Below, piece after piece: positions 55,382 to 64,000 of a DNA stretch of 64,000 bases. The notes beneath the pieces are model-generated. The model had not been told where the DNA came from, searched no databases, and was given only the letters and a program-made list of their open reading frames with translations. Source of the stretch: Bacteroidota bacterium (GTDB taxonomy: Bacteria > Bacteroidota > Bacteroidia > B-17B0 > Aurantibacillaceae). Position 1 is the stretch's first letter. Each line of letters starts with the position of its first letter. Both the position numbers and the translations under genes were made by a program. The stretch covers positions 124,001 to 188,000 of the forward strand of contig JAFDXR010000005.1 of the NCBI GenBank assembly GCA_018267825.1. Direction: 5' to 3'.

Positions 55382-55393
55382 GCCTTATTTTTT
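55368..55393 (+). terminator. terminator at the purF-like stop codon
   Basis: TAAGGGCTTA and TTAAGCCTTA form a stem with one bulged G, followed by six T; the stop codon lies within the hairpin. It also covers the end of the convergent glycan operon. Confidence 0.65.
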
Positions 55394-57352
55394 CCATGGC
55401 CGTAATATCTGAATGAGCCTGAAATAGCGCTCCCACAACCTTTGCTGAGTTTTGAAATCGGTATGTTTTCTTGGAGGGGATGCCATGATTTTATCAAACT
55501 CCGTTTCACTCAATCCGAGTTTTTTCAGAACATACTCTTTTTCCTGCACCAGATCCTGTGGATCGTACAGAGGTTTTTGCAGTTCAAGCTTTGCCTCGCT
55601 TTTGGTTATCTGGCCAGAGCAAATGAGTGTTGACAGGTGGGCTTTTCGTTTATCAACATGAAATTTTGTTGGCAGAATATAGGCCTGGTAGAATTTTGTA
55701 AATATGGATTCGTAGTGTTTCCCGCCATAATCACGCCATCCTAATTCCTTTTTCAAAACATCTTTTGCCTGTTCTTTATGGTAGTCGATATAATTCAGAA
55801 CCTGAATAGATTCTATTTTCAAAAAAATCGAAAACCAGAATTTTTTCAGGAATGTGATATGCGGAAAGCTTTTGATTTTTGCTTTGCCATATTTTTCATT
55901 GATGTCGCGTATATTCGTAAAATCTGTTTTATCGAATACCCAACCTTTAGGCATAATGGCTTCGGTTGCGTAATTAAATCCGCTCAGCGTATACCTGATT
56001 TTGTACTTTGAGGCTATTTTATAAATCGTGGCGTAAATGGCGTGATCTGTCAAAGCTTCAATATCGATAACTCCCGCCCGGAGGTAAGCCAGCTGTAATT
56101 GCTTGAACTCTTCCCAGTTAATAACGTATGTTTGCAGGGAAAAGCCGAGTTTGTCGCATATCCGTTGAATATTTTCGACAGCCAGTTCACTGTTCCAGCC
56201 GTTATCAAAATGTACAACGAGAGGGCGTAGTCCCTGTTGATGTGCCCAATATGCAAGATAAGAACTATCTGTACCGCCACTGACCCCAAGTATACAATCG
56301 TAATCGTGGCCCTGTCCGTTTTTCTTTATTTCCTCTACTTTATGACGAATAAAATCCTGGCGTTTGTTCCAACTGCCAAGTTTTTGAGTTACTGTATCAT
56401 AGTACCTGCAGTAATTACAAATGCCGTATTGATCAAAGTAGATAGCCTCAACATCTTTACTTGTAAGGATGCAACGATTACAACACTGCTCTTCTCCGGA
56501 GCTGTAATAAAATACATTTTCCGGGGGTTTGACACTGGTTTTTGGCGTGGAAAATATCCTGCTCTTATAATGTTTTATAGCATTAAACAACCAATACCTG
56601 GTGGTTTTCTGAGGTCTTGATTCTTTAAAAGTCTGACTGATCTCAAAAAGCCCTTTATAGAAAGGGTTAGATTTTGATAAACTAATCCAGGGCCCATATC
56701 CGTTCAGGTAATTCAGATGCTTCTTCCAATTTACCTGATCTGCCTGGAAAATCATGCTGCTTGTAATTGAAAAAGGTGTAAGTACCCGATAGTAAAGGGG
56801 GTGCCTGGCAGGCGTTTTGTAAACTGATTTATCGGCATAATAAATATGCCAATACACACTATGATCCTGAATAATGAGTGGCTCATTTTCGGGACCGCAT
56901 TTGCAAACTGCGTGTTCATATTTATGAACAGATGTGTTTGCAATCCAGCTATTCTTCCGATACGATATTTTCATGTATACTATATCTATACACACATGAC
57001 TCTGATCGTAATAACAATCGTATTTCTCAGGCTTTTGCTCTATCCTGTGCAAAAAGTCCGGTGAAATTAAATCGTCATCATCTAATCTGATAAGATACTC
57101 GGGAGTGATATCTGCTTTATGTTGTGTTATGTAATCCAGTGCGAGTTGAATTTTCTCAACTTTGTTTAAATCATCGCCTTCTATATATACGAAGGGGTCT
57201 TTTATTTGGTTTTCACATTTATCTCCTACAACGATTGCCTTCCAGTTTTTGCTTTTCTGATTCAGGAGCGATTCATATGTCATCTTCCACAGTGAATCCC
57301 GCATATTGTTGCGAAACTTAACAGGTGTACGTGGAATGATGAATATAAACAT
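55385..57352 (-). CDS. fusion: glycosyltransferase-like domain plus N-acetyl-sugar amidotransferase (WbpG/PseA-like)
   Basis: 655 residues. Residues 1-200: GT-A-like (FIFIIPRTPVKFRNNMR, then RLDDDDLISPDFL at about 88-100, a DDDD metal site). Residues about 200-285: linker. From about 286: CCNRCILTSKDVEAIYFDQYG and CNYCRYYDT (Cys-rich zinc-like lead), PP-loop GVSGGTDSSYLAYW at about 354, then LKKELGWRDYGGKHYESIFT and FHVDKRKAHLSTLICSG, all typical of the amidotransferases (WbpG, PseA) that turn an N-acetyl group into an acetamidino group with ammonia supplied by HisH/HisF-like partners. Those partners are not visible in the window. Last gene of the glycan operon. Confidence 0.85.
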   Translation of the reverse strand: MFIFIIPRTPVKFRNNMRDSLWKMTYESLLNQKSKNWKAIVVGDKCENQIKDPFVYIEGDDLNKVEKIQLALDYITQHKADITPEYLIRLDDDDLISPDFLHRIEQKPEKYDCYYDQSHVCIDIVYMKISYRKNSWIANTSVHKYEHAVCKCGPENEPLIIQDHSVYWHIYYADKSVYKTPARHPLYYRVLTPFSITSSMIFQADQVNWKKHLNYLNGYGPWISLSKSNPFYKGLFEISQTFKESRPQKTTRYWLFNAIKHYKSRIFSTPKTSVKPPENVFYYSSGEEQCCNRCILTSKDVEAIYFDQYGICNYCRYYDTVTQKLGSWNKRQDFIRHKVEEIKKNGQGHDYDCILGVSGGTDSSYLAYWAHQQGLRPLVVHFDNGWNSELAVENIQRICDKLGFSLQTYVINWEEFKQLQLAYLRAGVIDIEALTDHAIYATIYKIASKYKIRYTLSGFNYATEAIMPKGWVFDKTDFTNIRDINEKYGKAKIKSFPHITFLKKFWFSIFLKIESIQVLNYIDYHKEQAKDVLKKELGWRDYGGKHYESIFTKFYQAYILPTKFHVDKRKAHLSTLICSGQITKSEAKLELQKPLYDPQDLVQEKEYVLKKLGLSETEFDKIMASPPRKHTDFKTQQRLWERYFRLIQILRPWKK

Positions 57353-57361
57353 AGTGAGGAG

Positions 57362-57769
57362 TTATTTTCGGGACATTAATCTATTTTTATAAAGCGAAGT
57401 GGAAAGTCCATGACTTCTGTCGGTATAGTATAATTCGGCGCCAAGTTCTGAGCCTGTAATTGGCCTATTCTTATAATCGGTCCCCAAAAACCGGATATCA
57501 ATTCTCTTCTCTTTCATAATGGCGAGCAGTTCTTCTTCCGAGTTGTATGTCAGAACTTCATCTACATAACGACAGCTTTTCATAATAAGAATCCGTTCTT
57601 CGAGAGTATATAATGGCGGCTGCTTTCCGGGATTTATTGCCTCCGAAATATTTGCAGCAGAATTGAGGGCTACAATAAGGTAATCGCAATGTTCTCTGCA
57701 TTCCATCAGCATAAGTACATGCCCTGCATGAAACATGTCAAAAACTCCACATGTGAATCCTATTTTCAT
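57362..57769 (-). CDS. HldE-C/RfaE-type nucleotidyltransferase
   Basis: 135 residues. Cytidylyltransferase fold with GVFDMFHAGHVLMLMEC (HxGH motif), KSCRYVDEVL and RFLGTDYKNRPITGSELG; final RSHGLSTSLYKNRL matches the STT-type end of the heptose/glycerol nucleotidyltransferases. Most likely adenylylates a heptose-1-phosphate, because a PfkB kinase and GmhA-like isomerase are in the same operon; glycerol-3-phosphate or other substrates are possible. Overlaps the epimerase gene by four bases. Confidence 0.85.
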   Translation of the reverse strand: MKIGFTCGVFDMFHAGHVLMLMECREHCDYLIVALNSAANISEAINPGKQPPLYTLEERILIMKSCRYVDEVLTYNSEEELLAIMKEKRIDIRFLGTDYKNRPITGSELGAELYYTDRSHGLSTSLYKNRLMSRK

Positions 57770-58686
57770 TTCAACTGTTGTATGATATAATCTTTTAACT
57801 CGTGTTCCGGTGCCCAGTTGAGAATTCTACGTGCTTTTGATACATCGGCAAATGTAATTTCCGATTCTCCTTCCCTTTTTTCAATGAACTGATAATCGGG
57901 TGAAATCATTTCCGCCAATTCCAGAATACTAAGCGTGGAACCATTTCCGATGTTAAACGCTGTATTTAACCTGTCGGGGTGAATGGCAGCAAGGTAATTG
58001 GCTTTCGCCAGATCATATACATGCACAAAATCGCGACGCTGCGAACCATCTCCTGTTACCAATGGCTCCTGACCATTCCTGTATCTGTGCAGAAAAATCC
58101 CAACAACACTGCTGTAGGCATTGAATTTATTCTCCGGATTAAAACTCCGTGGGCCATAGGGGTTAAAATAACGCAAATTGACATAATTGAGCGGATAGCG
58201 CTCGGCCAATAGCCGGAGATAGCATTCCACTTCATATTTCTGAAAAGCATAAGGACTCAGGCAATCTATTTTCTCCGATTCGGGGGTTGGGATCAGTGAC
58301 GGAGTTCCATAGATAGCACTTGAACTGCTGAACACGAATTTCGGATACCGGTTTTCCCGGATCATCAGTTCAATCAGATGCATGGAGTTAACCAGATTTT
58401 CATTGATGTGTTCTGTCACATATTCGAAACTTGGTTGAATTCGCGGTAATGCCGCCAGATGGAATATGCAATCGTAAGACTTCAGACTTTCCAGATTCTT
58501 TATGGAGCCTTCGATCATGGTAAAGCGATCGTTTGTACGATGTGCTTCGATGTTACGCGGGGTACCGGTACTGTAGTTGTCAATCCCTGTTATTTTCCAA
58601 TCTGTTTTACTCAACAGATAATCCAGCAGATTGGAACCAATAAAACCAGCTACACCAGTAATCAGTACATTATTTATCTGTTTCAT
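57766..58686 (-). CDS. extended SDR NAD-dependent sugar epimerase/dehydratase
   Basis: 306 residues. Rossmann motif LITGVAGFIGSNLLDYL, catalytic SSSSAIYG and the Y-x3-K pair in SPYAFQKYEVE, NLRYFNPYGPRS and RRDFVHVYDLAKAN. Acts on a nucleotide sugar. The neighbours suggest epimerisation of an NDP-heptose, but UDP-hexose 4-epimerase-type activity is equally allowed by the sequence. Overlaps the SIS gene by 17 bases. Confidence 0.88.
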   Translation of the reverse strand: MKQINNVLITGVAGFIGSNLLDYLLSKTDWKITGIDNYSTGTPRNIEAHRTNDRFTMIEGSIKNLESLKSYDCIFHLAALPRIQPSFEYVTEHINENLVNSMHLIELMIRENRYPKFVFSSSSAIYGTPSLIPTPESEKIDCLSPYAFQKYEVECYLRLLAERYPLNYVNLRYFNPYGPRSFNPENKFNAYSSVVGIFLHRYRNGQEPLVTGDGSQRRDFVHVYDLAKANYLAAIHPDRLNTAFNIGNGSTLSILELAEMISPDYQFIEKREGESEITFADVSKARRILNWAPEHELKDYIIQQLK

Positions 58687-59197
58687 GGATAATGTCTAAA
58701 ATCGTGTGGAGGATTGTCTGATGATAGCATTCAACAATACCATAGCTATTGGCATTCAGGTAAAAATTGATTTTCCCTTTTTTTACCAGTTTATTATCAG
58801 GCTGAAACCCGGTTAAAGTAATGACATTTTTATTGATGGTATTGGCATAATCAACGGCATTATTAATGTTCGGTGAGTTTCCGGAGCTGCTGATTGCGAT
58901 GAGTATATCGTCGGGTTTGTAATATACTTTAAGCCATTCGACCATGGCCAGTTCATACCCATAATCGTTGGCGAAGCAGGTAATCAATGCAGGATCTGTA
59001 AATGCAAAGGACTCATAACGCAGCACTTTGGCAAAATCTTCCATTAAGTGGGAGCAAATGGAATTTGATCCTCCATTGCCAATGAAAAAGATGCGCTTGT
59101 GCTTCCTGATCATGGAAACCGCTTCCAGAATCTGATCGTCGATAAGCCGGGAGTTCATAAACTCCGCGAACTTTGCTTTATAAGTAGTGAGTGGCAT
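58670..59197 (-). CDS. SIS-domain phosphosugar isomerase, GmhA-like
   Basis: 175 residues, one SIS domain: FIGNGGSNSICSHLMEDFAKVL and IAISSSGNSPNINNAVDYAN, plus QTILHTILDIIHE at the end carrying the GmhA-type helix. Family enzymes isomerise sedoheptulose-7-phosphate to heptose-7-phosphate. Overlaps both neighbours (20 bases with the kinase, 17 with the epimerase), so stoichiometric expression is likely. Confidence 0.88.
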   Translation of the reverse strand: MPLTTYKAKFAEFMNSRLIDDQILEAVSMIRKHKRIFFIGNGGSNSICSHLMEDFAKVLRYESFAFTDPALITCFANDYGYELAMVEWLKVYYKPDDILIAISSSGNSPNINNAVDYANTINKNVITLTGFQPDNKLVKKGKINFYLNANSYGIVECYHQTILHTILDIIHETDK

Positions 59198-60047
59198 GTT
59201 TCAATAATAAATCTTTAGTTACACTTTTTTCGTTGCATAGCCAGGTTGTAGATAAGCTGGCCGCCAGGGAAGGTAATAACAATTTATCTTTTAATCCCTG
59301 AATAGAAGAACATAATGAGGCAAAAGCGAAAAAAGTATCTCCGGCCCCAATGGTATCAACGATATTGGTTTTGAACGACATTCTTTTTTCAATATCATTT
59401 CCGTTTGTATAAACTGCCCCTTGTTTACCGGTGGTAACAAACAGGTGTTCGGTATTTAATTCATAGTTATATATATCCAGAATATCTGAATTCTGTGGGC
59501 TTGATATACGTCTGTTAATCTGTAAGCTGGCTTCTCTCAGGTCAATACAGGTGCTTTTCTTCCGATGTGATTTCCACTTTGAAATACGGTTAAATCCAAA
59601 ATTGTTTGAGTTTGTCTGACACATCAGATGGAATCCGTCATCGATATGAAGTTTATCGCAAAAGCCGTGGCCAAAATCTGCCACAATAACCACGTCATAC
59701 TTCGCCGTTTCCACTCTGATATCGGGAAAAGCTGCTGTATCGAACTTATTGATTTCTACGTGTTTTTTCTTATCACTGATATCGACATAGCGCGTTTTTA
59801 CAATCTCACTGTTCGTATTTGTAACAACATCAACCCGTTTCACAAAGTCGTGAATATGATTGGCAATGGCCTGTGCCCCACCCTGCTGGACTGTTTTGCT
59901 TCCTTCGAGTTTGAATACGGGACAGATCGACTTCATCGATTGTCCTTCGTAGGATACATCAACAAATTCATCGACAATGGTCTCGCCCACTACCAAAACG
60001 GTTAAATCTCTGGATTGCTGAATAAAATGGTTGATTTGATCGATCAT
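59178..60047 (-). CDS. PfkB-type sugar kinase, HldE N-terminal-domain-like
   Basis: 289 residues. VLVVGETIVDEFVDV near the start, VVIVADFGHGF, FVTTGKQGAVYTNG and the catalytic DTIGAGDTFFAFASL. It resembles the kinase half of HldE/RfaE and should phosphorylate a heptose-7-phosphate at C1, but in HldE the kinase is fused to the nucleotidyltransferase, which here is the separate gene at 57362. No GmhB-type phosphatase is seen. Confidence 0.85.
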   Translation of the reverse strand: MIDQINHFIQQSRDLTVLVVGETIVDEFVDVSYEGQSMKSICPVFKLEGSKTVQQGGAQAIANHIHDFVKRVDVVTNTNSEIVKTRYVDISDKKKHVEINKFDTAAFPDIRVETAKYDVVIVADFGHGFCDKLHIDDGFHLMCQTNSNNFGFNRISKWKSHRKKSTCIDLREASLQINRRISSPQNSDILDIYNYELNTEHLFVTTGKQGAVYTNGNDIEKRMSFKTNIVDTIGAGDTFFAFASLCSSIQGLKDKLLLPSLAASLSTTWLCNEKSVTKDLLLKHATHYL

Positions 60048-60061
60048 GATGAATTCGTATG

Positions 60062-61048
60062 CTAATTTAGTTTTTTTACAAAATTGACAATGCTTTCTTC
60101 GTTGAAAGCATAAGATAATGTGCGATTAGTAAGATTTGTCCTGAAACGTAATGTATCAATAAGGCCTTTTATTGGTGGTTTTCCGTTAAAAATGAGCAAC
60201 ACATCCGTTTGTGTGTATATCCCCATATGAACTGCCCCCGAGTGCTGCGTAATAATCAGACTTGCATTGCAGCATGTTTCAATAACCACCCGATTATCGG
60301 TTGAAAGACATACCTCTATATTTCCTTCGGAACTCAGTTCGGCCGACATGCTTGGGTGACCAGTGATGTAAACTTTCTCGAAGAAAGGGCTTACTTTCCG
60401 TGCGATGTCCAGATAGTCCCAGGGGCCGCCATTATTGGGTGTAACCGCATTTCCTTTTTTGCGCGGAAAAATAACACATGACTTTTCCTGCCTTGTCTGA
60501 TAAACCGGACGGATATTATATGTGTGTTGTCGGCCTTTTTTCAGTTGCCAGTTTCGAAACACATACCAATACATATCGTTATCTGCAATATTCAAGAAGG
60601 CTTTTCCACTGCTGCGGGCCTTTACAAAAAACTGATCTATTTCCTTCTGCACATCCGGTGGTGGGACGGTAGCATTGGAGCTGGAGGGAACTTCGGCGAA
60701 AAAATCACGGAGCTCATGATATGTATGTACAATAGGTTGCCCGTGGCCATCGACCAGAAATGCTTTATGCAAGGCCATACCACAGTAATGTATTTTCACT
60801 CCCTGCTGATGCAGATGACTTAGAAAAGGAAGGTTATGCAACAAGAAGTGACCAAACTCCCCTTTAAATGGGCCATAGTAGCACTCTTTCTCTCGCAGGG
60901 CCTGTTTATAGAAGCGATTGATGTCGCGGTAGGCTTTCCAGACAATTTTAGCATAATGCATCTTTCCAAACACATTAAGCGTTCTTTGCCCATACATAAC
61001 TGTTGTGGCGTCGTTGGGGAAAATATAGTTATGTTCTTCTGTGGTCAT
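60062..61048 (-). CDS. probable glycosyltransferase, GT-B type
   Basis: 328 residues. No N-terminal signal. The C-terminal half looks like a GT-B nucleotide-sugar domain: CVIFPRKKGNAVTPNNGG, VYITGHPSMSAELSS, and LIITQHSGAVHMGIYTQTDV, the last being the HSG-type motif of family 9/61-like transferases. The N-terminal half is unassigned. Two bases lie before its start and the GT4 gene's stop. Acceptor and donor unknown. Confidence 0.7.
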   Translation of the reverse strand: MTTEEHNYIFPNDATTVMYGQRTLNVFGKMHYAKIVWKAYRDINRFYKQALREKECYYGPFKGEFGHFLLHNLPFLSHLHQQGVKIHYCGMALHKAFLVDGHGQPIVHTYHELRDFFAEVPSSSNATVPPPDVQKEIDQFFVKARSSGKAFLNIADNDMYWYVFRNWQLKKGRQHTYNIRPVYQTRQEKSCVIFPRKKGNAVTPNNGGPWDYLDIARKVSPFFEKVYITGHPSMSAELSSEGNIEVCLSTDNRVVIETCCNASLIITQHSGAVHMGIYTQTDVLLIFNGKPPIKGLIDTLRFRTNLTNRTLSYAFNEESIVNFVKKLN

Positions 61049-63897: not shown

Positions 63898-64000
63898 GGC
63901 TTATGCTTTTAATAAGTTTGTCGACTCCCATCTCAAAATTGATCGCAGGCGTGAACAAAATATGTTTCATTTTTTGAATATCTCCGATCAGGTTTTTAGG
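63890..64000 (-). CDS. NAD-dependent sugar epimerase, C-terminal fragment (continues beyond window)
   Basis: The last 36 codons of a gene that enters from the right edge: GDIQKMKHILFTPAINFEMG and VDKLIKSIS. This is the standard end of extended-SDR sugar epimerases/dehydratases (the D-x-x-K-A-x-x-x-L-x-W/F-x-P pattern). Stop TAA at 63890-63892 overlaps the methyltransferase start by eight bases. Too short for a specific assignment. Confidence 0.75.
   Translation of the reverse strand, partial: PKNLIGDIQKMKHILFTPAINFEMGVDKLIKSISHE

Follow-up and report, generated by a model that had tools for sequence, protein, structure and literature searches.

Can a single polypeptide both modify a surface sugar and transfer it? 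This question is raised by one gene in the window (the whole 64,000-nucleotide stretch of DNA analysed here), whose product was originally predicted to join a GT-A-like N-terminus, recognised by an LDDDD motif, to a PP-loop amidotransferase resembling WbpG and PseA. We examined the integrity of the gene, its two halves, its relatives and its neighbourhood.

The gene and its two domains

The frame encodes 655 amino acids, begins with ATG and has no internal stops, and is thus a single uninterrupted gene (Table 1). We considered an internal start that would yield a separate amidotransferase and rejected it, as codons 200-467 contain no in-frame ATG and a single TTG, at codon 255. The AlphaFold model of the protein has a mean pLDDT of 88.8, with most of the GT-A domain between 75 and 97. 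However, no fixed channel or domain-domain interface is visible in the model, because its pTM is only 0.62 and the linker is floppy. Taken together, sequence and structure prediction establish two intact domains in a genuine, recurrent fusion.

Table 1. Features of the fusion gene and the adjoining cassette (window positions), and fusions of the same architecture in other assemblies
Feature	Location or accession	Strand	Remarks
Fusion gene, GT-A glycosyltransferase + WbuX/NASAT N-acetyl-sugar amidotransferase	55385..57352	-	closes co-directional cluster
GT-A domain, aa 1-266	56555..57352	-	AlphaFold model; VIA Z 15.7 to RmlT; 14 aligned relatives
LDDDD motif, aa 90-94	57071..57085	-	L90, D91, D93, D94 invariant
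Flexible linker, aa 267-285	56498..56554	-	pLDDT under 50 at 267-278
WbuX/NASAT amidotransferase domain, aa 286-655	55388..56497	-	TIGR03573 profile; 8WEX fold
Zinc tetracysteine motif C291, C294, C312, C315	56408..56482	-	motif as defined in PMC10607449
PP-loop SGGTDS, aa 358-363	56264..56281	-	motif as defined in PMC10607449
Nucleotidyltransferase like HldE domain II (HldC-like)	57362..57769	-	9 bp upstream of fusion
SDR epimerase/dehydratase, GalE/HldD-like	57766..58686	-	
SIS isomerase, GmhA-like	58670..59197	-	under GmhA cut-off
PfkB-type sugar kinase, HldA-like	59178..60047	-	under cut-off
328-aa protein, predicted GT-B fold nearest GT9 heptosyltransferases	60062..61048	-	3tov, WaaC, WaaF, TibC
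L066 fusion, 667 aa	JACPOC010000041.1		groundwater Bacteroidetes MAG
L067 fusion, 658 aa	CAMAPT010000007.1		
L068 fusion, 662 aa	JAHEYK010000003.1		

The amidotransferase half agrees with the original prediction. Residues 289-623 match the WbuX profile TIGR03573 over nearly its full length (278.4 bits against a cut-off of 203.2; profile positions 2-343 of 344), and this domain is the sole WbuX copy of the source genome. N-acetyl sugar amidotransferases (NASATs) are defined by a tetracysteine zinc motif and an SGGXDS PP-loop, and little is known about how those that belong to acetamidino sugars work (PMC10607449). Both motifs are present, the former (CXXCXn[GN]XCXXC) with G310-I-C312 in its second part. 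LpNASAT (8WEX) was missed by a plain phmmer search of the PDB and was recovered by structure search alone, where it aligned with residues 284-627 (VIA Z 25.5 over 312 residues, rmsd 3.4; Foldseek E 1.7e-14). The domain thus shares its full-length profile, zinc motif, SGGXDS motif, fold and HisH/HisF partners with the NASAT family, which includes WbpG of Pseudomonas aeruginosa O5, WbuX of Escherichia coli O145 and LpNASAT. By analogy with this family, it would convert an N-acetyl to an acetamidino group using ATP. However, the characterised enzymes (WbpG, WbuX and LpNASAT) stand alone, whereas the window protein adds an N-terminal GT-A domain.

The N-terminal half is predicted to be a glycosyltransferase by its fold and not by its Pfam score. 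It scored below the cut-offs of both Glycos_transf_2 (PF00535; 16.8 bits against 23.3) and the rhamnosyltransferase family PF11316, and assignment to either was rejected. A profile built from 14 relatives nevertheless found a glycosyltransferase in the PDB, 5hea (E=2.8e-5), and the predicted structure matched, mostly over residues 1-192 or so, the GT-A enzymes RmlT, WrtF (VIA Z 15.1), TarS (14.9), TarP (14.5) and SpsA (14.4); Foldseek gave 6p61 at E 5.8e-7. Besides the motif residues listed in Table 1, W136, H164, Y187 and R189 are invariant across the 14 relatives, and inspection of the L068 fusion, which lies outside that alignment, found LDDDD there too. The domain therefore has the fold (aa 1-192, Z 14-16) and a DxD-type LDxDD motif in common with GT2-type GT-A enzymes (RmlT, TarS, TarP, SpsA, WrtF and 5hea), but is only about 13-17% identical to them and, as noted, falls under the Glycos_transf_2 cut-off. 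Unlike the RmlT/TarS/TarP/SpsA group, its own family is centred on Bacteroidota and consists of proteins of about 280 amino acids. Sugar transfer by this domain is a prediction from the chemistry of related families.

Ammonia partners of the amidotransferase

Partners for the amidotransferase had been described as absent within the window, which is literally true and yet misleading. The same prediction had proposed looking beyond position 64000 for HisH/HisF-like genes, and both were found 6-7 kb further on, on the strand of the fusion (HisF2 at window-equivalent positions 70005-70769 and HisH2 at 70769-71380). They belong to a same-strand run of 23 genes, spaced by no more than 111 bp, of which the fusion gene is the last. 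With 343.5 bits, HisF2 exceeds the cut-off of the acetamidino-specific AglZ/HisF2 family (NF038364; 310), and it falls under that of histidine HisF. The Asp of the CLDVM region is the catalytic (cyclase) residue of histidine HisF. The histidine HisF of the same genome (contig C33) has CLDVM whereas HisF2 has CLLLK, and HisF2 therefore lacks the catalytic Asp. HisH2 matched the HisH profile TIGR01855 with 237.7 bits and retains the triad motifs GICLGMQ and QFHPEKS.

These scores, motifs and a gene string shared with the fusion liken the locus to the AglZ/HisF2 acetamidino system with its HisH, although here the partners are separated from the fusion by about 13 kb on its upstream side. In the L068 relative the genes adjoin, HisH and HisF coming directly after the fusion, and HisF/HisH homologues also occur within the clusters of L066 (genome G014, seen in L022) and L067. 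Some polysaccharide clusters (L021, L022, L066 and L088) hold multiple WbuX paralogues, with three full-length copies and one diverged copy in G014. This suggests that several amidotransferases may share a single HisH/HisF pair.

Recurrence in relatives

An identical GT-A + WbuX architecture was found in three other genomes (Table 1), two of which are shown to represent other genera of the host's bacterial family, and the linkers vary among them. Elsewhere the halves are separate adjacent genes (L025, L073, L079, L081 and L087) that overlap by 4-26 bp or lie at most 16 bp apart, the GT gene preceding WbuX in all but L025 of the five. The L073 cluster is collinear with the window across about a dozen genes, both running AsnB, GT4, SDR, methyltransferase, deacetylase-like, GT4, 328-aa GT9-like protein, kinase, SIS, epimerase and nucleotidyltransferase, then GT and WbuX; one fused gene therefore fills the place of two. 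Genes of this GT family are fused to or adjoin WbuX in 8 of 27 loci (the window locus left out), compared to 4.7% for the other genes there (binomial P 2.5e-5, a value that ignores relatedness among the loci). Outside the host's bacterial family the GT-WbuX fusion is rare, since among the over-cut-off WbuX matches listed for an even sample of 392 Bacteroidota genomes, all but that of the window lie in frames of at most 475 aa.

The four fusions, that of the window included, group in a single supported 12-member clade of the WbuX tree (98/83). Five further members have a gene of the GT family beside or near WbuX, one is fused to GT4, and in the last two (G004 and G015) WbuX is preceded by a GT4-like gene, either immediately or with one gene in between. 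Fused and separate forms interleave, with a minimum of three changes forced in the WbuX tree and of two in the GT tree, where L068 stands away from the window clade. Given these counts, a single origin of the fusion is not supported. Repeated fusion fits the trees, as does fusion with repeated splitting, and one gain followed by several splits remains compatible with them.

Other fusions of WbuX

Amidotransferases of this group had been taken to be separate proteins. This does not hold generally, as within the host's bacterial family WbuX is fused to GT4, GT2, AsnB and class-II glutaminase domains. Over-cut-off WbuX domains follow an N-terminal GT4 in L101, L104, L107 and L108, follow domains without family assignment in L103 and L105, carry a C-terminal GT2 in L115 (a frame ended by the contig edge), and are joined to a whole asparagine synthetase (AsnB) in L111. 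The pairing of amidotransferase and glycosyltransferase therefore arose with more than one GT fold and with either domain first. The GT4 and GT2 fusions resemble the window protein in holding both activities on one chain but differ from it in having an unrelated GT fold (GT-B) or the reversed order, and we found no paper describing them in the open-access literature.

The GT4-WbuX proteins at L107:6505-8604 and L108:7384-9483 lack most of the WbuX zinc cysteines and form a supported clade with the AsnB-WbuX fusions. The latter, in which an AsnB-type asparagine synthetase and WbuX make up about 1000 aa (L111:7026-10034, L112:2674-5688 and L113:7757-10396, the last ended by a contig edge), have also lost most of these cysteines. 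They are possibly amidotransferases with their own glutaminase, independent of HisH/HisF. Frames of about 675 aa combine a putative class-II glutaminase with a WbuX-like domain (L109:6541-8559, L110:6944-8989 and L114:6858-8912); a profile check on L109 gave its domain 139 bits, under the TIGR03573 cut-off. In other Bacteroidota families, too, comparably long frames contain WbuX matches that stay below this threshold.

The neighbouring heptose-like cassette

The genes next to the fusion appear to form a diverged heptose-type sugar-nucleotide block, heptose-like only. A true ADP-heptose pathway was rejected from the profile scores of GmhA (64.0 against 209.45), HldE domain I (38.4 against 345) and HldE domain II (73.1 against 181.5), and GmhB was matched weakly in the genome (85 and 55 bits; cut-off 149.6). 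A family profile search with the 328-aa protein returned no match; its predicted structure matched 3tov (E 1.1e-4) and WaaC (E 1.9e-4). The five-gene block (57362-61048) is mobile, its kinase being found in 18 of 87 genomes of the host's family, and is often adjoined by a 476-aa putative membrane protein that replaces GT and WbuX.

Relatives of the window GT lie inside a PfkB/SIS/epimerase/nucleotidyltransferase cassette without WbuX in four Flavobacteriales loci (L076-L078 and L085). Because of this shared cassette, and because the 328-aa protein folds like GT9 enzymes, the GT donor might be a heptose-like sugar that differs from the sugar modified by WbuX. The genomes G014 and G083 have the fusion, but no close relative of the cassette kinase turned up in their assemblies (threshold E 1e-40), and no cassette genes were seen near the fusion in either.

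Proposed function and alternatives

We consider it probable that the protein is a bifunctional enzyme of glycan assembly. HisH2 would hydrolyse glutamine and release ammonia, which HisF2, having lost the cyclase Asp, would relay onward; the C-terminal WbuX domain, with ATP, would then convert the N-acetyl group of a sugar to an acetamidino group. The GT-A domain, at the N-terminus, would attach to the growing surface polysaccharide a sugar belonging to the same glycan, and this would most likely be the WbuX-modified residue. The context gives good support to a shared glycan for the two domains; a shared target residue and the sequence of the two steps are our inference. It is probable that two steps in the building of the surface glycan are physically linked, because the ammonia partners belong to the gene string of the fusion and the halves are neighbours in relatives, and such coupling recurs, WbuX being fused in the same bacterial family to unrelated glycosyltransferases at its N-terminal (GT4) or C-terminal (GT2) side. 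The adjacent separate genes and repeated WbuX-GT fusions likewise lend support to the earlier idea that one polypeptide modifies and transfers.

Other explanations have to be weighed against this. An error of sequencing or assembly that joined two genes has a negligible chance of being correct, since three other assemblies contain the fusion too, with variable linkers, and nothing was found in favour of such an error. This recurrence and the GT-A fold of the N-terminus dispose of the two refutations that the original prediction named, a joined pair of genes and an N-terminus unlike any transferase. The domains might instead work on two residues, with the GT moving the heptose-like sugar of the cassette, WbuX amidinating another N-acetylated residue (either the acceptor or the sugar that follows) and the fusion coupling consecutive steps. 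The Flavobacteriales relatives and the GT9-heptosyltransferase-like protein of the cassette point this way, as does the fact that a heptose pathway alone supplies no N-acetyl group. However, a heptose donor would be more naturally used by the GT9-like protein itself, and the fusions of G014 and G083 do without a nearby cassette or close kinase homologue, so that we hold this explanation as a tentative one, more doubtful than not.

It is also conceivable, but in our judgement unlikely, that operon neighbours merged through loss of a stop codon and that the halves remain independent enzymes. Such a merger is mechanically easy because the separate halves overlap or nearly touch, and the low-confidence linker and the alternation of fused and separate states in the trees are in keeping with it. 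Against it, WbuX-GT fusions are repeated, with varied folds and on either side, beyond what random neighbours would give (yet AsnB fusions also exist), and GT and WbuX adjoin more often than other genes of the same loci do. Our preferred reading remains a bifunctional enzyme whose domains serve one glycan.

A broader proposal, which we regard as speculative and would not yet favour, is that coupling in cis is family-wide: WbuX would amidinate while the glycan is being assembled, acting on the donor destined for its own glycosyltransferase or on the lipid-linked product of that enzyme, and GT-A, GT4 and GT2 modules would have been swapped onto a conserved amidotransferase. If so, the same positively charged sugar would be placed in different linkages.

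We found no description of a glycosyltransferase-NASAT fusion in the open-access literature (PubMed Central), in agreement with the original remark that no example was known, and the GT-A + NASAT fusion thus appears to be undescribed within that literature. Acetamidino sugars bring positive charge to surface glycans (PMC10607449), and a natural fusion names the glycosyltransferase that partners an amidotransferase. A single protein allows substrate, step order and channelling to be tested, and recurrent fusions of this kind offer a route to donor assignment for otherwise uncharacterised glycosyltransferases.
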